Of a stretch of 64,000 nucleotides of DNA, positions 2,974 through 10,906 are shown one piece after another. A model generated the notes under the pieces. That model was not told the DNA's origin. It saw only the letters and a list, made by a program, of their open reading frames with translations, and searched no databases. This DNA comes from Maribellus sp. YY47 (GTDB lineage Bacteria > Bacteroidota > Bacteroidia > Bacteroidales > Prolixibacteraceae). The first letter of the stretch is position 1, and every line of letters begins with the position of its first letter. The position numbers and the translations under genes were made by a program. The stretch lies in the NCBI RefSeq assembly GCF_023111095.1, contig NZ_JALGYW010000003.1, positions 131,446 through 195,445 on the forward strand, written 5' to 3'.

Positions 2974-4164
2974 TTACCAATCCAGTAACCTTTTTTCCCC
3001 TTCCAATGATTGGATATCGGATATTTCCTGCGAAACTTCAATTACGCCTTTGTATTGTCCCGCCTGATCTCTCACCGCAAAATAGCGAATAAGAATAAAT
3101 TCGCCTTTCATTTTTATCCAGAAAGAAGCCTGATCTTTTTCACCGGAGCGGAAAGATTCAACAATTCTCTCTACCACATGAACACTTTCAGGCGGATGGC
3201 AGTTTTTTACCTCACGCCCGATGATGGCTGTGGTGCGCGGAAAAATCCTTTTGGGAGGAGTCGAAAAATACTGCACTTTATTGTTTTCATCCACGTAAGT
3301 AATGTCAACCGGCAGGTGGTTAAAAATTAAGCTGATTTGTTCGACACTTAAAACACCGGTTCCCAGGTTGATAAAACCATCGCCCCTGCTTACTTCCTCT
3401 TTCCCTGCTGTTGCGTGGGAGGGGTGAATATAGGGGTAACCCATTTCAAAGCCCAGTCGATTCATCGACTGCAGTTCTTCGTCGCTGATGGTAGAGAGAA
3501 TAGCCGGAAACAGTATGTGTTCTTCCCTGAATTTGATGGCCAGCATGTTGAAGTAGATATCCCCCACACAGCGGTTAAATTGCCGGGCATCCACCTGTCC
3601 GCTTTCCAGTTGTTGTGTAACTGTTTTCAGATTTTTGCGGATGTCGTCGTGAATCGACCACATAATTTGCAGACAGCGGTAATCGGGCCAGGTTTTCTCA
3701 ATTACCGGAAACAAAACATTTTCCTTGATGGTGTAGTGCTTTACAAATACTTCGAGCTTCCTGAAGTGTTGGAGTAATTCTGCCCTCAAAGTCTTATCCC
3801 GAGTATCTTTGGCGAAGGCCTTAAAAACGGGCCGTATCTGATCCAGAACCTGCACCATATGGCGGTTGTTTTGTTCCAGAACATCCAAAAATGAACCGGC
3901 GGGTGGCTCTATCCGCAGATAATTTTCAATCGGGATGTGAAAAATATTCAAAACCTTGTTGGCAAGCATTTTCAGTTTGTCAACCGGAATTTCTTCCTGA
4001 ACAAGAAAATCGAACAGCGCAATAAAATCGGAGGGAACAACGGTTGGAATAAAGCTTTTGTTGGCCATCACAAAAGAATGTGCATTTCCTGTTTCGAGAA
4101 TCATTTTTGAAACTTCCCGTAATTTCGCCAGTCTTTTTTCGTTGGTTGTTGTGAATTCTGACAT
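2974..4164 (-). CDS. DUF438 / hemerythrin-like / PAS protein
   Basis: A soluble protein of 396 residues from the ATG at 4164. An N-terminal DUF438-type helical region is followed at about residues 95-245 by a hemerythrin-like region with scattered His/Glu (HYTIKENVLFPVIE, SIHDDIR, FREEHILFP), and at about 265-390 by a PAS-type domain with the segment CHPPESVHVVERIVESF typical of this family. Proteins of this layout are thought to bind a di-iron centre and react with O2 or NO; the exact reaction is not known. A longer TTG frame would overlap the upstream ferredoxin by 20 bp, so the ATG is preferred. It is last in a minus-strand run with a ferredoxin, a racemase, an Rrf2 regulator and the RIC repair protein, which supports a nitrosative-stress role. 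Confidence 0.85.
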   Translation of the reverse strand: MSEFTTTNEKRLAKLREVSKMILETGNAHSFVMANKSFIPTVVPSDFIALFDFLVQEEIPVDKLKMLANKVLNIFHIPIENYLRIEPPAGSFLDVLEQNNRHMVQVLDQIRPVFKAFAKDTRDKTLRAELLQHFRKLEVFVKHYTIKENVLFPVIEKTWPDYRCLQIMWSIHDDIRKNLKTVTQQLESGQVDARQFNRCVGDIYFNMLAIKFREEHILFPAILSTISDEELQSMNRLGFEMGYPYIHPSHATAGKEEVSRGDGFINLGTGVLSVEQISLIFNHLPVDITYVDENNKVQYFSTPPKRIFPRTTAIIGREVKNCHPPESVHVVERIVESFRSGEKDQASFWIKMKGEFILIRYFAVRDQAGQYKGVIEVSQEISDIQSLEGEKRLLDW

Positions 4165-4177
4165 AATCGTAATCAAC

Positions 4178-4387
4178 TCAATTACTCTGTTCCTCAAATT
4201 TTATAATTTGTACCGGGCAGTTTTCTGCCGCTTCTTTGATTTCCTGTTCGTATAAATCGTAGTCGGGCCAGGGCACTACAATCATTTTATCAAACACCTT
4301 GAAAACCCTCGGGGCAAATGCCTGGCAAATTTTGCAGGCTATGCACTGGTTCACACTATCGTCTCTCCAAACTCGTTTAATTCCCAC
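4178..4387 (-). CDS. Single-cluster [4Fe-4S] ferredoxin
   Basis: A 69-residue soluble ferredoxin. Ligands CxxCxxC (C15, C18, C21) and the distal CP (C57-P58) are all present, enough for one [4Fe-4S] cluster as in Thermotoga and Desulfovibrio ferredoxins. The position that is a fourth, non-ligand Cys in many relatives (CxxxCP) is A25 here. The start is GTG at 4387, which lies inside the last codons of the racemase gene (11-bp overlap), indicating translational coupling. The next gene, the DUF438 protein, follows after 13 bp. The likely role is electron supply to or within the stress block; its partner is unknown. Confidence 0.85.
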   Translation of the reverse strand: MGIKRVWRDDSVNQCIACKICQAFAPRVFKVFDKMIVVPWPDYDLYEQEIKEAAENCPVQIIKFEEQSN

Positions 4388-5084
4388 TCAAACATTCCTT
4401 TAAAATAGCCTCCACATGAATTTTTGTGGTATTCAGAAACGGCATTCCCAAATAAGCTTCTTCCCTGAACATAAGCGGAAATTCGGTGCACCCCAGGATA
4501 ACTGCTTCAATTTCGTGCTCCTTTTTCATGTTGCCAACAATTTCGAGAAAGTCGTTTTTGGTTTCTTCTTTAAAAATTCCCAGTTCAATTTCGTTGAATA
4601 CTTTCTGATTGATGTACTCGATTTGTTCCGGGCCGGGCACCACTATATCCATATTATAGTTGAAAAACACTTTACGGTAGAAATCGTTTTGCATGGTGAA
4701 TTTGGTGCCGATCAGTCCGCACTTTTTTACCGACAGTGATTGAGCTTTCTTTGCGCAGGCTTCTACGATACTAATGAGCGGGACACTTACTCTTTGTTGA
4801 ATTTCATCGAATAAAAGGTGTGGAGTGTTGGCGCTTAAGGCAGCAAAATCAACTCCTGCTTTTCCAAGGCTGTTAACGCCGAGAACCAGGTAGTCAATGG
4901 CCTCATCGTATTTCTTCTGTCCCAAAAGCCCCACCAGTTTCCACATGTCCACACTGTAAATCACAATTTCGGGATAAACAGCATTTCCGGTCTGATTCTT
5001 CAGATTGAAATGGTGGATGATTTCCTTGTAGTAATCGATGGTTGCTTCGGGTCCCAGGCCCCCGATTATTCCAATTGTTTTCAA
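4377..5084 (-). CDS. Aspartate/glutamate racemase family protein with one catalytic residue replaced
   Basis: A 235-residue cytoplasmic protein of the Asp/Glu/hydantoin racemase fold, recognised by the N-terminal IGGLGPEATIDYY and the C-terminal GCTEFP motif, which supplies one catalytic Cys. The residue before the other catalytic-site Asn-Thr pair, normally Cys (CNT) or Thr (TNT, as in E. coli YgeA), is Ala here (ALSANTPH, A85). A standard two-base racemisation is therefore doubtful, and the enzyme may be strongly one-sided or act on another substrate. The start is TTG at 5084 (LKTIGIIGG read as Met), with no ATG alternative. It overlaps the ferredoxin gene by 11 bp and sits 18 bp below the Rrf2 gene. 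Confidence 0.85.
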   Translation of the reverse strand: MKTIGIIGGLGPEATIDYYKEIIHHFNLKNQTGNAVYPEIVIYSVDMWKLVGLLGQKKYDEAIDYLVLGVNSLGKAGVDFAALSANTPHLLFDEIQQRVSVPLISIVEACAKKAQSLSVKKCGLIGTKFTMQNDFYRKVFFNYNMDIVVPGPEQIEYINQKVFNEIELGIFKEETKNDFLEIVGNMKKEHEIEAVILGCTEFPLMFREEAYLGMPFLNTTKIHVEAILKECLSGN

Positions 5085-5102
5085 AACGGTTATTTTTTGG
5101 GT

Positions 5103-5543
5103 TTAAGTAATCGAGCGTTTTAGAACAGCTTCGCCTTTTTTAATTTTTTCAGAGAGAGATTGAATGGTTTCTTTTCGAACAATGTCGTAAAAGCTGTCGC
5201 GAACCACTTTGTACTGCTCGTGCAGTGGGCATGGATTTTCGTTGTTGCACGATTTCAGCCCAAATCCGCAGCGGTGGAAACAGCCGTCGCCTTCCATTAC
5301 ATGAATGATCTTATATAGCGAAAGTTCGGTTTGTTCGTCGTTGAAAAAGAAGCCTCCGCCTCGTCCTTTTGCCGAGTCGAGCAACTGATGCCGGGTAAGG
5401 GTTTGCAGAATTTTGGCCGAAAATGCCTCGGGCGCTTCAATCTCGCGTGCAATTTCAACTACTCCGGGTCGCTTTCCTTCCCAGTTTTTAAGCTGAACAT
5501 AAACCAGTGCCCGTATGGCATATTCGGTACTTTTTGCTAACAT
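5103..5543 (-). CDS. Rrf2-family Fe-S transcriptional regulator (NsrR/IscR-like)
   Basis: A 146-residue DNA-binding protein with the Rrf2 winged helix (MLAKSTEYAIRALVYV, then SAKILQTLTRHQLLDSAKGRGGG). After the helix a cysteine group C88-x3-C92-x6-C99-x5-C105 could hold an Fe-S cluster; NsrR and IscR bind theirs with three Cys in this region. The gene starts with ATG at 5543, four bases after the RIC gene ends, so the two are co-transcribed. The neighbouring NO reductase, RIC and hemerythrin-like genes suggest that it senses NO or cluster damage. Its likely operator is the 26-bp palindrome at 6311-6336. The link to that site is inference. Confidence 0.88.
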   Translation of the reverse strand: MLAKSTEYAIRALVYVQLKNWEGKRPGVVEIAREIEAPEAFSAKILQTLTRHQLLDSAKGRGGGFFFNDEQTELSLYKIIHVMEGDGCFHRCGFGLKSCNNENPCPLHEQYKVVRDSFYDIVRKETIQSLSEKIKKGEAVLKRSIT

Positions 5544-5547
5544 GTCT

Positions 5548-6276
5548 TTAGTTTTTGGAAATAATTTCTTTTTCCAAAGCTAATGCTTTCAAAAATAAAA
5601 TGTTGTTTTCCAAATGAATATGTCGGTGCAGATCCTGCTCGAAGTCGCTTAGCGTCTGATAAGTAATGCGATAGGTGTTGCATCCGTCGGGCGGGCAGGT
5701 ATAGTCAGAAGTTAGGTCCGCTATTTCAAAAAAGCGCTCGCCCTCGGCCTGGTGTTCCTGCAACATTACTTCTATCGGGCCGTTAACGCCTCCAAATTCG
5801 TTCGCAATGCTAGTGTCGCCGTTTTTATATTGAACCATTTTCTGGATGTACGGGAAAAGTACCAACTCCTCTTTTTGCATGTGCATGGTCAGGTTGCCGG
5901 CTGCTGTGCTAAACAAGTCTTTTACTTTGAAAAGCTCCGGATGATTTTCGCCGTGTACATCGCAAAGTTTTTGAAGCTTTTGCTGAAGAAAGGGAATATT
6001 CTGGCTTACATACGAATGATGACGTGCCACAATATAATCACTTAGCTGATCGAGACCTAAACTGTCGATGTATTTTGAATCGGGATCATCCGTAAGAAAA
6101 ACCGTTTCCAGCTCTTCAAGTAAAACCTCCTGCGAAACATTTGCCTTTGAACAGGCATCTTTAACACTGATGGCTCCGCCACAACAAAAATCAATTTTGT
6201 GCTGATCAAAAATCCGGGCTGTTTTGTAGTTTCCTTTTACAATTTCGCCCACTGAAGTATTCAAATTAATTTCCAT
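5548..6276 (-). CDS. ric: RIC-family di-iron protein for iron-sulfur cluster repair
   Basis: A 242-residue protein of the ScdA/YtfE (RIC) family that restores Fe-S clusters damaged by NO or oxidants. The N-terminal ScdA_N domain has the hallmark FCCGG (C31, C32), and the C-terminal hemerythrin domain supplies di-iron ligands in HHSYVSQ, HGENHPE, MHMQKEELVLFPYI and DLHRHIHLENNILF. The ATG at 6276 is used; a TTG six codons upstream lies inside the TACCTTTG promoter box and cannot be the start. It heads the minus-strand run RIC - Rrf2 - racemase - ferredoxin - DUF438 protein and is divergent to the NO reductase gene. Confidence 0.93.
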   Translation of the reverse strand: MEINLNTSVGEIVKGNYKTARIFDQHKIDFCCGGAISVKDACSKANVSQEVLLEELETVFLTDDPDSKYIDSLGLDQLSDYIVARHHSYVSQNIPFLQQKLQKLCDVHGENHPELFKVKDLFSTAAGNLTMHMQKEELVLFPYIQKMVQYKNGDTSIANEFGGVNGPIEVMLQEHQAEGERFFEIADLTSDYTCPPDGCNTYRITYQTLSDFEQDLHRHIHLENNILFLKALALEKEIISKN

Positions 6277-6291
6277 AATTCTATTTTTTGT

Positions 6292-6299
6292 CAAAGGTA
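6292..6299 (-). promoter_or_regulatory. -7 box of the RIC operon
   Basis: On the minus strand this reads TACCTTTG (TAnnTTTG), 15 bp from the ATG at 6276, so the leader is only about 10 nt. No TTTG is found at the -33 position, which falls inside the palindrome at 6311-6336. Confidence 0.75.
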
Positions 6300-6310
6300 T
6301 AATTTTTTTT

Positions 6311-6336
6311 ATAAAAGGACAGCAGGGTCCTTTTAT
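6311..6336. promoter_or_regulatory. Perfect 26-bp palindromic operator between RIC and NO reductase genes
   Basis: ATAAAAGGAC, a six-base spacer AGCAGG, then GTCCTTTTAT: ten-base arms with no mismatch. The site lies between two divergent TAnnTTTG boxes (6299-6292 minus, 6347-6354 plus), 11 and 10 bp from each, so it covers the -33 region of both promoters. Such a site can bind a homodimer and control both units. The Rrf2 protein encoded two genes away is the obvious candidate. The motif differs from the TTGAC/GTCAA type known for HcpR. Confidence 0.8.
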
Positions 6337-6346
6337 GATTTTATTT

Positions 6347-6354
6347 TATATTTG
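6347..6354 (+). promoter_or_regulatory. -7 box of the quinol NO reductase gene
   Basis: TATATTTG matches TAnnTTTG exactly, 27 bp before the ATG at 6382. The -33 TTTG is missing and its place is taken by the palindrome, consistent with a regulated promoter. Confidence 0.75.
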
Positions 6355-6381
6355 CTCCCAGAAACAATAAAAATCAATCTT

Positions 6382-8625
6382 ATGAATTCAAAGAAACTTT
6401 GGATCGGTTTTATCCTGGTTATGGTTATTTCGTTTGGAATACTTGGATACTATGGCCGGGAAATTTATCGCGAAGCACCTCCCATTCCTGAAAAAGTGGT
6501 CACCGAAGATGGCACGGTGGTATTTACTGCTGCAGATATCAAGGATGGCCAAAATGTTTGGCAATCGATGGGAGGGCAGGAAGTCGGAACTGTTTGGGGG
6601 CACGGCGCCTACAAAGCTCCCGACTGGACCGCCGACTGGCTGCACCGCGAGGCTGTTTTTATTCTGAATAAGTGGTCGTTGGACGATTTTTCAAAAAGGT
6701 ACGACGACCTGCCGGATGAAAACCAGGCCCAGTTGCAAAAACGTTTGCAAAACGAATTACGAAAAAATACTTACGACACGCAGTCGAAGAACACGATCAT
6801 TTCGGAGGTGCGCGCAGAAGCTATCCAAAGCAACAGTGCGCATTATGGCGGTTTGTTTATGAACGATCCGGAGCTTGCACATTTACGTGAAGCCTACAGC
6901 ATTCCGGCCAACACAATAAAAGACCCGGAAAGAATGCGGAAAATGAACGCCTTTTTCTTTTGGGCTTCGTGGGCAACAGTAACCGAGCGGCCCGGCATGG
7001 AAATCACCTTCACCAATAACTGGCCGCCCGAAAAACTGGTGGGCAACGAACCAACGGGGGCGCTGCTTCTGTGGACTGGCTTTAGTGTGATTATTTTGCT
7101 GTTTGGCATTGGCCTGCTTGGCTGGTATTACGCCACCAACCGCGAGGAGGAAGAGGACCATGTTGTACCCAAGGTGAATCCTTTATCGGGGACCCAACTC
7201 ACCCCTTCAATGAAAGCGACCTTAAAATATTTCTGGGTAGTAACAGCCCTTATTTTGGTGCAGATATTAATGGGGGTTATTACGGCACACTACGGAGTGG
7301 AAGGGCTCGGTTTTTACGGGCTGCCACTGGCGGATGTATTACCGTACTCCATTTCCCGCACCTGGCACATTCAGTTAGCCATTTTCTGGATCGCCACTTC
7401 GTGGCTGGCTACCGGCTTGTTTATTGCTCCCGCAATCTCGGGGAAAGAACCAAAATTTCAACGCTTCGGAGTTAACTTCTTGTTTATTGCATTGCTGATT
7501 ATTGTTGTGGGCTCGCTGGCCGGACAATGGATGGGAGTAATGCAGAAACTGGGCCTGATCGAAAACTTCTGGTTTGGGCATCAGGGATACGAATATGTTG
7601 ACCTCGGACGATTCTGGCAAATATTCCTGTTTATCGGACTGGTTTTGTGGTTGTTGTTGATGGGACGAGCGATCTGGCCGGCCATAAAGGCAAAAAACGA
7701 GAACCGTCATTTGCTGACGATGTTCCTGATTGCTTCAGTAGCCATTGCAGCTTTTTATGCCGCCGGTTTAATGTGGGGTCGGCAAACGCACCTGGCCATT
7801 GCCGAGTACTGGCGCTGGTGGGTGGTGCACCTTTGGGTGGAAGGCTTCTTCGAGGTGTTTGCTACCGTGGCCATTGCTTTCCTGTTTGTTCGGATGCAGT
7901 TGATTCAGGCAAAAATAGCCACTTCCAGTGTGTTGTTCTCGACCATTATTTTCCTTTCCGGAGGAATTTTAGGGACTTTTCATCACTTGTATTTTACAGG
8001 AACTCCAACCGCGGTGCTCGCTCTTGGGGCAACGTTTAGTGCGCTCGAAGTAGTGCCGCTGGTACTAATGGGTTTTGAGGCCTACCATAACATACGAATG
8101 AGCAGGGCGAAGGAATGGGTTTCAGCCTACAAATGGCCGATTTACTTTTTCGTTTCGGTGGCTTTCTGGAACTTTTTGGGCGCCGGTATCTTTGGTTTCC
8201 TTATCAATCCGCCCATTGCACTTTACTACATGCAGGGGCTGAATACAACACCGGTTCACGGACATACAGCCTTGTTTGGGGTCTACGGAATGCTGGGGAT
8301 CGGGCTTATGCTCTTTGTTTTGCGTGATATGGATTTGAATGTAACGTGGAAAGAAAAAAATATACGCCTTTCATTTTGGATGCTGAATGTTGGACTACTG
8401 TTAATGGTTGTTTTAAGCGTGCTTCCTGTTGGCTTGGCTCAAACCGTTGCCAGTGTGAAACACGGATTGTGGTACGCCCGTTCGGCCGAATTTCTGGAAA
8501 CGCCAACGCTGGAAACAGTTCGTTGGTTACGGGTAATCGGTGATACAATATTTGCGGTGGGCGCATTGTATCTTGGCTGGTTTGTATTTGGGCTGAAAAC
8601 AGGATGGTCTGTAAAAAGAAAATAA
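6382..8625 (+). CDS. norZ: Quinol-dependent nitric oxide reductase (qNOR)
   Basis: A 747-residue inner-membrane heme-copper superfamily enzyme that reduces 2 NO to N2O with quinol. The long N-terminal extension with GQNVWQSMGGQEVGTVWGHG and PDWTADWLHRE is diagnostic of single-subunit qNOR, where the NorC-like part is fused to NorB but lacks the heme c motif. The NorB part shows the metal-ligand helices (RTWHIQLAIFW, WWVVHLWVEGFFEVFA with the conserved Glu, HHLYFTGTP, HGHTALFGVYG) and about 14 membrane segments. The ATG at 6382 is used; the TTG at 6352 overlaps the promoter. It stands alone with its own terminator, and with RIC across the operator it forms an NO detoxification module. Confidence 0.95.
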   Translation: MNSKKLWIGFILVMVISFGILGYYGREIYREAPPIPEKVVTEDGTVVFTAADIKDGQNVWQSMGGQEVGTVWGHGAYKAPDWTADWLHREAVFILNKWSLDDFSKRYDDLPDENQAQLQKRLQNELRKNTYDTQSKNTIISEVRAEAIQSNSAHYGGLFMNDPELAHLREAYSIPANTIKDPERMRKMNAFFFWASWATVTERPGMEITFTNNWPPEKLVGNEPTGALLLWTGFSVIILLFGIGLLGWYYATNREEEEDHVVPKVNPLSGTQLTPSMKATLKYFWVVTALILVQILMGVITAHYGVEGLGFYGLPLADVLPYSISRTWHIQLAIFWIATSWLATGLFIAPAISGKEPKFQRFGVNFLFIALLIIVVGSLAGQWMGVMQKLGLIENFWFGHQGYEYVDLGRFWQIFLFIGLVLWLLLMGRAIWPAIKAKNENRHLLTMFLIASVAIAAFYAAGLMWGRQTHLAIAEYWRWWVVHLWVEGFFEVFATVAIAFLFVRMQLIQAKIATSSVLFSTIIFLSGGILGTFHHLYFTGTPTAVLALGATFSALEVVPLVLMGFEAYHNIRMSRAKEWVSAYKWPIYFFVSVAFWNFLGAGIFGFLINPPIALYYMQGLNTTPVHGHTALFGVYGMLGIGLMLFVLRDMDLNVTWKEKNIRLSFWMLNVGLLLMVVLSVLPVGLAQTVASVKHGLWYARSAEFLETPTLETVRWLRVIGDTIFAVGALYLGWFVFGLKTGWSVKRK

Positions 8626-9314: not shown

Positions 9315-10268
9315 ATGGTACTCAAGATAGCCCTGTTGCTCTCGATGCTGATTCAGCTGGGAGCAGCCATTACAGCCGTCAGTCTCATTCGGCGTACGCG
9401 TTTTAATATCTCGTGGATCCTTATTTCTGCAGGATTCGTATTGATGGCTTTGCGCCGACTGTTTGAATTTTCATCTCTTTTCTGGGAAACACAGTTGATC
9501 ACAAAAGTTGAATTCAGCAGCTGGATCGGAGTTATGATCTCCATCCTTATGCTGGCCGGTGTAATTTTTATCCGTCAGATTTTCAATTTACAGGACCGGA
9601 TCGAACTGCTTCGAAAAGAGAATGAATCGCGCTTACTAAAAGCTGTGATCCAGGGAGAAGAGCAAGCTCGACGATCGATTGCACGTGATCTGCACGACGG
9701 ATTGGGCCCCGTTCTTTCATCCATAAAAATGACGGTGAGCGCAATTGATTCGGACAAAATGGACCAATCGAATCAGAAAATGATTGAACTCACCTGCAAA
9801 GCAACCGACGAAGCCATTGTTGCCCTAAAGGAAATATCGAACCACCTGAGCCCTCATCTTTTAAAAAATTATGGATTGACAAAGTCGCTGGAAACCATCA
9901 GCAGTCAAATGCTTGCCAACTCTACCATCGCTTTTAACCTGAGTGGCAATATTGAAGCAAAACGTTTCCGCTACGATATCGAGATTGGCTTGTTTCGGGT
10001 AATTTCCGAACTTCTGAACAACAGCCTAAAACACGCCGCCCCTGATAAAATCTCACTGAATATAACTGAAACCGGAGATCTTTTAAAAATGACTTATTCC
10101 GACAACGGAGTGGGTTTCGAAATGAACAATCAACCCAACTCACTGAAAGGCAAAGGTATGGGATTCGAGAATATCCGTTCGCGCATAAAATCGATGAATG
10201 GTGTTTACTACCTCGATTCGGAACCGGGAAAAGGAATGAACATGACGATTCAAATTCCCCTGAAATGA
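9315..10268 (+). CDS. Sensor histidine kinase, NarL-system type (HisKA_3)
   Basis: A 317-residue membrane-bound kinase. Two N-terminal membrane helices (about residues 3-24 and 67-90, with a shorter hydrophobic stretch at 35-47) leave almost no periplasmic domain. The HisKA_3 region holds the phospho-acceptor His127 in ARDLHDGLGPVLSSIKM, and the HATPase domain has the N box (SELLNNSLKHA) and G boxes (DNGVGF, GKGMGFENI). The stop overlaps the start of the response regulator gene by four bases (ATGA), so the pair is translationally coupled. The lack of a sensor domain suggests that the signal is read in the membrane or cytoplasm. The target genes cannot be told from the sequence. Confidence 0.92.
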   Translation: MVLKIALLLSMLIQLGAAITAVSLIRRTRFNISWILISAGFVLMALRRLFEFSSLFWETQLITKVEFSSWIGVMISILMLAGVIFIRQIFNLQDRIELLRKENESRLLKAVIQGEEQARRSIARDLHDGLGPVLSSIKMTVSAIDSDKMDQSNQKMIELTCKATDEAIVALKEISNHLSPHLLKNYGLTKSLETISSQMLANSTIAFNLSGNIEAKRFRYDIEIGLFRVISELLNNSLKHAAPDKISLNITETGDLLKMTYSDNGVGFEMNNQPNSLKGKGMGFENIRSRIKSMNGVYYLDSEPGKGMNMTIQIPLK

Positions 10269-10906
10269 AAAAGATAAACATTTATGTGATTGACGACCAT
10301 TCGCTGTTTCGCGAAGGATTAAAGTTTTTGCTTTCGCAGCTCGATTTTGTCGATGAAATTTATGAAGCCGAAAATGGATTGGATTTCCTGAAAGGCATAA
10401 AAGAAAAGAATGTTGACGTGGCGCTTCTGGACATTGAAATGCCCGGAATGAACGGCACCGAAGCCGCTAAAAAAGCACTCGAAATTCATCCCGGAATAAA
10501 AATCATTGCAGTATCGATGTATTCCGACGAAAGCTATTATGCCACCATGATTGAAGCGGGAGCAAACGGATTTCTTCTGAAAAATTCCAATTTCACGGAA
10601 GTGAAAAAGGCCATTACCGATGTATTGGAAGGAAGGAACTATTTTTCGATGGAGATCCTTCAGTCGATCGTAAACCGCATGAATGACAGATCTGCCGGGA
10701 AAACCGACTACGAACTCACCGAACGTGAAACGGAAGTACTAAGCCTGATTTGTAAAGGTTGCTCCAACCAGGAAATTGCCGATATTTTATCGATCAGCAA
10801 AAGAACCGTTGACAAACACCGGGAGAATTTGCTCTTGAAAACGCAATCAAAAAATACAGCGAACCTTGTTGTTTTTGCAATTAAAAACGGCTATTACAGC
10901 ATCTGA
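10265..10906 (+). CDS. NarL/FixJ-family response regulator
   Basis: A 213-residue regulator. The receiver domain has acidic residues D10 and D11, the phosphorylation site D56 (LLDIEMPGMNG) and a conserved Lys near residue 106. The C-terminal LuxR-type helix-turn-helix is clear: LTERETEVLSLICKG, then SNQEIADILSISKRTVDKHREN. It is the partner of the kinase gene it overlaps. Phosphorylation should promote dimerisation and DNA binding. Confidence 0.95.
   Translation: MKKINIYVIDDHSLFREGLKFLLSQLDFVDEIYEAENGLDFLKGIKEKNVDVALLDIEMPGMNGTEAAKKALEIHPGIKIIAVSMYSDESYYATMIEAGANGFLLKNSNFTEVKKAITDVLEGRNYFSMEILQSIVNRMNDRSAGKTDYELTERETEVLSLICKGCSNQEIADILSISKRTVDKHRENLLLKTQSKNTANLVVFAIKNGYYSI

Follow-up and report, generated by a model that had tools for sequence, protein, structure and literature searches.

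The window, by which we mean the whole stretch of 64,000 nucleotides that was analysed, carries two divergent units for nitric oxide (NO) defence, one headed by ric and the other by norZ. This raises the question of what switches them, and whether a single regulator could serve both. Between the two starts lies the palindrome ATAAAAGGAC-AGCAGG-GTCCTTTTAT (6311-6336); its arms (6311-6320 and 6327-6336) are perfect and separated by the spacer AGCAGG. We consider it likely that this palindrome is the operator of an NsrR-like Fe-S Rrf2 repressor, encoded in the ric operon, that would cover the -33 regions of both promoters and have NO as its signal. The perfect 26-bp palindrome, the flanking -7 boxes and the gene order had been pointed out in an initial annotation, and the sequence bears them out.

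The features of the region are listed in Table 1. The genes of the ric operon are closely spaced or overlapping, and rrf2 starts 4 nt after ric. NorZ is predicted to be of the quinol type, based on its fused cytochrome c-like domain. Among the window genes beside the site, Pfam and NCBIfam revealed no isc or suf genes. A NarX/NarL-like kinase and response regulator pair is present at 9315-10906, starting 0.7 kb after norZ.

Table 1. Features of the divergent ric and norZ units, with positions as in the window
Feature	Position	Strand	Basis
Hemerythrin-PAS protein, last gene of the ric operon	2974..4197	-	PF01814 and PF13596; overlaps the ferredoxin gene
Small single 4Fe-4S ferredoxin-type protein, operon member	4178..4387	-	PF13370; overlaps the racemase gene
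Asp/Glu racemase-type gene, operon member	4377..5084	-	TIGR00035, 168.7 bits; 18-nt gap after rrf2
rrf2, Rrf2-family regulator, proposed operator ligand	5103..5543	-	Pfam PF02082; second gene of the ric operon
ric, ScdA/YtfE-type di-iron repair protein, ATG at 6276	5548..6276	-	NCBIfam TIGR03652, 236.7 bits (cut-off 204.7)
-7 box TACCTTTG of the ric-rrf2 unit	6292..6299	-	Direct sequence; plus-strand letters CAAAGGTA; start 24 nt from the palindrome centre
Proposed Rrf2 operator, 30 bp	6309..6338	.	Direct sequence; consensus TTATAAAAnGAC-N6-GTCnTTTTATAA
-7 box TATATTTG of norZ	6347..6354	+	Direct sequence; start 23 nt from the palindrome centre
norZ, NO reductase	6382..8625	+	PF22085 and PF00115; no NCBIfam family

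Within the window the site stands out by its sequence, scoring 30.7 bits with the position matrix described below against 5.5 bits for the runner-up anywhere in the window, and the palindrome pattern with at most three mismatches is expected 0.01 times. The 5.04 Mb genome contains a single exact copy of the site. With up to three mismatches the pattern was found at 48 places in this genome vs 136 for a reversed control pattern, i.e., there is no excess of additional sites, and a search for a second site with the exact 22-bp pattern gave no convincing candidate; a copy with two mismatches lies inside a peroxiredoxin-like gene. Perfect inverted repeats (arms ≥10, gap ≤12) are present at four places in the window (six overlapping hits), and ten shuffles of the window gave 0-4 such hits. 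The particular pattern is rare while a repeat of this size is not, and the palindrome by itself is not beyond chance and is weak evidence. Since perfect inverted repeats of such size arise by chance in the window, the case must rest on conservation.

Rrf2 relatives were collected from whole genomes of the kin and from named genome records, the best 80 of 287 relatives being used (L055-L134). A first matrix built from 13 sites identified the same kind of site beside rrf2 in most of 92 loci, and 77 sites were kept for the final matrix, the consensus of which is given in Table 1; with their own sequence left out, these 77 sites score 18.0-38.0 bits. Of the 80 named Bacteroidota loci (best 80 of 287), 72 carry a site scoring 15 bits or more in the 1,300 bp ahead of rrf2 (leave-one-out, which removes the own sequence alone so that similar sites of kin stay in), with 74 at a cut-off of 12 bits and 78 at 10 bits. 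Thirty matrices with symmetrically permuted columns gave a mean of 0.2 and a maximum of 2 loci. The remaining eight loci are L092, L097, L099, L102, L107, L109 and L122 (9.1-14.4 bits) and L082; in L082 the upstream stretch ends at a contig end. Nine loci that carry different Rrf2 genes (33-36% identity) yielded no site, the best match being 9.3 bits and located inside a coding region.

The independent search covered 395 genomes spread over the phylum, 48 of which have an Rrf2 relative at E 1e-40 or less, and provided a test set of 29 new loci from other families, none used in training. Here a site of at least 15 bits is present in 20 of the 29 loci (17 of these within 1,300 bp upstream of rrf2), compared with a mean of 0.24 and a maximum of 4 for 50 permuted matrices; nine of the 29 have no recognisable site at this cut-off. 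Hence, the scan of related Bacteroidota for the palindrome upstream of ric and norZ orthologues, of which a negative outcome would, according to the initial annotation, have refuted its proposal, identified the site across the phylum. Moreover, compensatory double changes across the arms number 57 compared to 31.2 ± 4.1 after shuffling (0 of 500 shuffles as high), and sliding the arm pairing abolishes the signal. Such compensation is how a symmetric dimer site should behave, with the reservation that shared descent inflates these counts.

These data bear on the idea that the palindrome arose by chance, or represents a terminator-like or RNA hairpin without operator role. The shuffled windows and similar AT-rich hairpins elsewhere speak for it. 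However, the palindrome is positioned between divergent starts and upstream of both -7 boxes, and it should therefore be in neither transcript; this, the compensated arms and the conservation in both sets of loci make a chance repeat or hairpin extremely unlikely.

The site follows rrf2 through changes in gene order. A script labelled the 92 Rrf2 rows as ric-rrf2 (41), ric<>rrf2 (27), nor<>rrf2 (9) and other (15), and the site stays beside rrf2 in the arrangements ric-rrf2<>norZ, rrf2<>ric-norZ, rrf2<>norZ and rrf2<>cydAB. In the kin of the window ric-rrf2 faces norZ, while in a clade of 31 rows (support 100/100) rrf2 faces ric in 27 rows with the site between them. In L091 rrf2 faces the cytochrome bd genes cydAB and the site is kept. 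In L101 it faces a SLAC1-type channel gene (Pfam) near a narG-like gene, other such loci being recognised by eye; for the SLAC1-type-channel loci L101, L102 and L107 the site scores just 12.3-16.2 bits.

Among 61 related genomes, 21 hold a ric-linked Rrf2 (E below 1e-31) and all 21 have ric. NorZ at 65% identity or more is encoded in 18 of the 61, and 17 of these 18 have the ric-linked Rrf2. In four of the 25 genomes with ric no ric-linked Rrf2 was detected; three of these have a site ahead of ric all the same (G001, 12.6 bits; G025, 24.4 bits; G027, 19.3 bits), and in the fourth, G047 (61% complete), we found neither the ric-linked Rrf2 nor the ric site. We are not comfortable with G027, which is rated 99% complete, such that a missing contig is a poor excuse for the absent Rrf2. 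Taken together, site conservation and linkage to rrf2 favour, as first proposed, one putative Fe-S sensor of the Rrf2 family that as a dimer serves both units; this is the best-supported reading.

Two side observations concern the distribution of rrf2. Locus L060 (Lutibacter sp. B1 record) is the sole one of the 80 named loci whose record carries the label Flavobacteriaceae; the Rrf2 it encodes clusters with Marinilabiliaceae, and the operator is identical to that of L059, which would fit either horizontal transfer or a misassigned contig. Second, a third Rrf2 subgroup with C-x6-C-x5-C (L181, L182 and L185) adjoins a distant NO reductase (≈33% identity to NorZ). No match to the operator above 3.6 bits was found in these three loci, and this subgroup may use a different DNA code.

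The -7 consensus reported for Bacteroidota promoters is TAnnTTTG (PMC7366714). Both window boxes fit this consensus and the palindrome stands nearly symmetrically between them, as did the initial annotation have it (for distances from the centre to the box starts, see Table 1). It also stated correctly that neither promoter has the TTTG -33 element: none is present 22-24 nt ahead of either -7 box, and at the ric promoter GCTG stands in register where TTTG would be. This absence means little because most other promoters are without TTTG too (12 of 72 have it 22-24 nt ahead of the -7 box), and we rejected it as a sign of an activator.

Distances were determined from the palindrome centre to the start of the best-matching -7 box, which had 5 or 6 of the 6 fixed positions. 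For the 34 sites located more than 600 bp ahead of rrf2, the box on the ric-rrf2 side is 22-26 nt from the centre in all 34; on the opposite side the range is wider, with 24 of the 34 at 22-26 nt and 23 nt being the commonest distance (15/34). For the 43 loci where rrf2 is the nearest gene, the target-side box lies 23-26 nt from the centre in 34, and the box of rrf2 itself 28-34 nt away in 26 (commonest 33), roughly one helical turn further. The independent set from other families shows a box at 22-26 nt in 13 of 13 sites that start 58-71 nt ahead of rrf2. Because of these measured distances the operator is predicted to cover roughly -20 to -50 of target promoters, including both -33 regions in the window. 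In 17 of the 43 loci the spacer contains TTTG oriented toward the target promoter, and in 16 of these (the exception is L121) it lies 22-25 nt from the -7 box, so that the operator can enclose the -33 element.

This geometry argues for a repressor, although an activator would fit the narrow spacing as well. The same Rrf2 protein might thus bind the palindrome and activate, or activate one side and repress the other, replacing at -33 the missing element. In addition to the narrow range of distances to the -7 box, the lack of TTTG ahead of both window promoters could mean that an activator is needed, and the distance to the box of rrf2 itself is near the usual activator position. On the other hand, a dimer bound with its centre near -35 would clash with sigma region 4, and the spacer TTTG places the site over a likely promoter element. 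Moreover, NsrR represses where it has been studied (PMC11500311). We therefore regard activation as unlikely, and repression by Rrf2 as the preferred reading.

Is the protein encoded in the ric operon equipped for such a role? It scores 82.9 bits with PF02082 (cut-off 30) and 77.6 bits with TIGR00738 (cut-off 73.3), which places it in the Rrf2 superfamily. The initial annotation described an Rrf2 protein with four Cys one gene into the ric operon. Its position and the four Cys (C88, C92, C99 and C105) are correct, but the conserved set is three Cys plus one His: C92, C99, C105 and H108 are present in all 81 relatives, E7 is present in 80 of them, whereas C88 occurs in 18 of 81 and is not conserved. 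The motif C-x6-C-x5-C-x2-H was also seen by eye in all 29 loci of the second set. The three Cys of Escherichia coli NsrR align with C92, C99 and C105 and its D8 with E7, while the His of IscR, which is a cluster ligand, aligns with H108.

The best PDB profile match of the Rrf2 protein is NsrR (5n07, E 5.4e-10). Its predicted structure has a pLDDT of 91.9, and the best fold match by E-value (Foldseek) is [4Fe-4S] NsrR on its operator (7b0c). CymR chains, which are not known to carry a cluster, give a higher TM-score than NsrR (0.73 and 0.68, respectively); the matches recognised among the top 34 are Rrf2 proteins. In an NsrR studied in detail, Asp8 serves as fourth ligand and forms a pair with Arg12, while the connection between cluster and DNA-binding domain is made by Glu85 (PMC11500311). 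The corresponding places are occupied by E7, R11 and E84, each present in at least 90% of the 81 relatives. The fourth cluster ligand would be either E7 of the partner subunit or H108, its rival. Thus, the parts for NsrR-type NO sensing appear to be present, as judged from alignment and predicted fold. The curated models were nevertheless missed: NsrR (NF008240) with 26 bits vs a cut-off of 182, IscR (TIGR02010) with 37.2 vs 207.55, and RirA with 58.5 vs 193.

Another factor might instead occupy the palindrome, e.g. HcpR or another protein of the Crp/Fnr family, or the NarL-type response regulator (10265-10906) of the kinase-regulator pair close to norZ. HcpR is required for hcp induction in Bacteroides thetaiotaomicron (PMC13370916) and regulons have been predicted for it in Bacteroides and Porphyromonas gingivalis (PMC1274295). 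However, motifs for HcpR, DNR and NsrR have no match in 6277-6381 within 2, 2 and 3 mismatches, respectively, and for the HcpR motif GTAACnnnnGTTAC this extends to 3045-7240 (2 mismatches), in keeping with the early remark that the operator is unlike that of HcpR. No counterpart of the kinase-regulator pair (50% identity or more) was found in the examined stretches of 80 related rrf2 loci, in which site and rrf2 stay together. On these absences we rejected the response regulator, HcpR, DNR and a classical NsrR site, and consider it very unlikely that a factor other than Rrf2 uses the palindrome.

With Rrf2 as the candidate ligand, the sites in other families point to further targets. In the test set they precede norZ in eight loci, the flavohemoglobin gene hmp in L239 and L242, the copper nitrite reductase gene nirK in L240 and, in L262, a cytochrome c gene followed by nosZ, which is truncated at the end of the locus. 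In the eight loci with a norZ site (L243, L244, L247, L248, L250, L251, L253 and L259) the site is ≈1,040 nt after the rrf2 start, shortly before the norZ ATG and directly after a hairpin that by eye resembles a terminator. None of the eight has TAnnTTTG between site and start; in L243 and L250 it is found upstream of the site, inside the hairpin. In L244 an azurin gene is present between rrf2 and norZ.

A covariance model of the site gave matches in 29 of the 61 genomes at E 0.5 or less; of the 21 genomes with ric-linked Rrf2, it recovered the site beside rrf2 in 15. It also matched 12 genomes without this Rrf2, in part at AT-rich hairpins, and the motif alone thus defines no regulon. Extra members from this search were not counted, the matches away from rrf2 being a mix of candidate targets and AT-rich hairpins.

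Two groups of matches are mentioned as observations. Strong matches lie ≈220 bp ahead of a peroxiredoxin gene (L135:1501-1530 and L142:1501-1530) in genomes in which no ric-linked Rrf2 was found; they could represent a terminator or the site of another factor, and given the distance of some 220 bp from its start this gene was not counted as a regulon member. Sites of 21.7-26 bits are present at L057:1775-1804, L038:108-137 and L151:1501-1530. A CHRD-domain lipoprotein gene follows the site in L057 (Draconibacterium mangrovi; Pfam) and L151 (by eye; genome G002, away from rrf2), while in L038 a similar site has the same position after norZ and the next gene is outside the stretch. The CHRD-domain lipoprotein gene may be an extra regulon member, and was not counted as one.

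From the sequence data we infer binding of Rrf2 to the site, repression and NO as the signal, and the switch might operate as follows. Without NO, the Rrf2 dimer with its Fe-S cluster, held by C92, C99, C105 and the fourth ligand discussed above, would occupy the palindrome. The bound dimer would cover about -20 to -50 of both promoters and keep norZ and the ric-rrf2-racemase-ferredoxin-hemerythrin/PAS operon off. NO would attack the cluster and the dimer would leave the DNA, such that NO reduction (NorZ) and Fe-S repair (Ric) come on together; with rrf2 within the operon, the switch would be reset.

Beyond this locus, we lean slightly towards the view that Bacteroidota possess, across the phylum, their own equivalent of NsrR: a Fe-S sensor of the Rrf2 family that recognises a GAC-N6-GTC core in AT-rich arms and governs NO defence together with parts of denitrification (norZ, ric, hmp, nirK, cytochrome c-nosZ and cydAB), with an operator that replaces or contains the -33 element and two recurring spacing rules. 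By the first rule the distances are about 23/23 nt where ric-rrf2<>norZ share one control region; by the second, targets are at about 25 nt and rrf2 at 33 nt, further away by one helical turn. If true, a single dimer could switch two promoters together, or treat its own gene unlike its targets. Bacteroidota occur commonly in sediments and soils, habitats in which the turnover of NO and N2O is important. With a defined operator the Bacteroidota regulon could be read from sequence, and exact promoters and residues can now be named for bench tests. The role of Rrf2 in clade II nosZ clusters has been described as hard to predict, with knowledge limited to Proteobacteria and Firmicutes (PMC6264515).

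In the open-access library searched we found no earlier description of an Rrf2 operator for Bacteroidota (subscription papers and RegPrecise lay outside the scope of this search). Rrf2 genes are known beside clade II nosZ in sediment metagenomes, from a survey of nos clusters with query proteins from Flavobacteriales, and our loci resemble these in having Rrf2 genes in such a setting; the available text of that report gives no operator or regulon (PMC6264515). HcpR, a heme-binding member of the Crp/Fnr family in Bacteroides and Porphyromonas, likewise serves nitrosative defence in this phylum and is predicted to regulate dnrN in B. fragilis (PMC1274295), but belongs to a different protein family and its motif was not found here. 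IscR, the regulator of Fe-S assembly, shares the three Cys and the His in the aligned C-x2-H position; yet it is 19% identical to the window Rrf2, and the site has no isc or suf gene beside it. NsrR, the NO-sensing repressor of E. coli and Streptomyces coelicolor, shares the Rrf2 fold, the three Cys ligands at aligned positions, an acidic residue at the Asp8 position (here Glu) with matching Arg and Glu, and the NO-defence targets ric, nor, hmp and nirK, assigned here by site position alone. Differences from NsrR are the identity of 22% to the E. coli protein, the C-x6-C-x5-C spacing with an extra conserved His, and the operator, which in NsrR reads gATGyAT-N5-ATrCATc (PMC1274295) and in the window follows TTATAAAAnGAC-N6-GTCnTTTTATAA. 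Because the curated NsrR model is missed and the operator differs, the protein is set apart from NsrR and, while it would work like NsrR, is classed as a variant of the Rrf2 superfamily.
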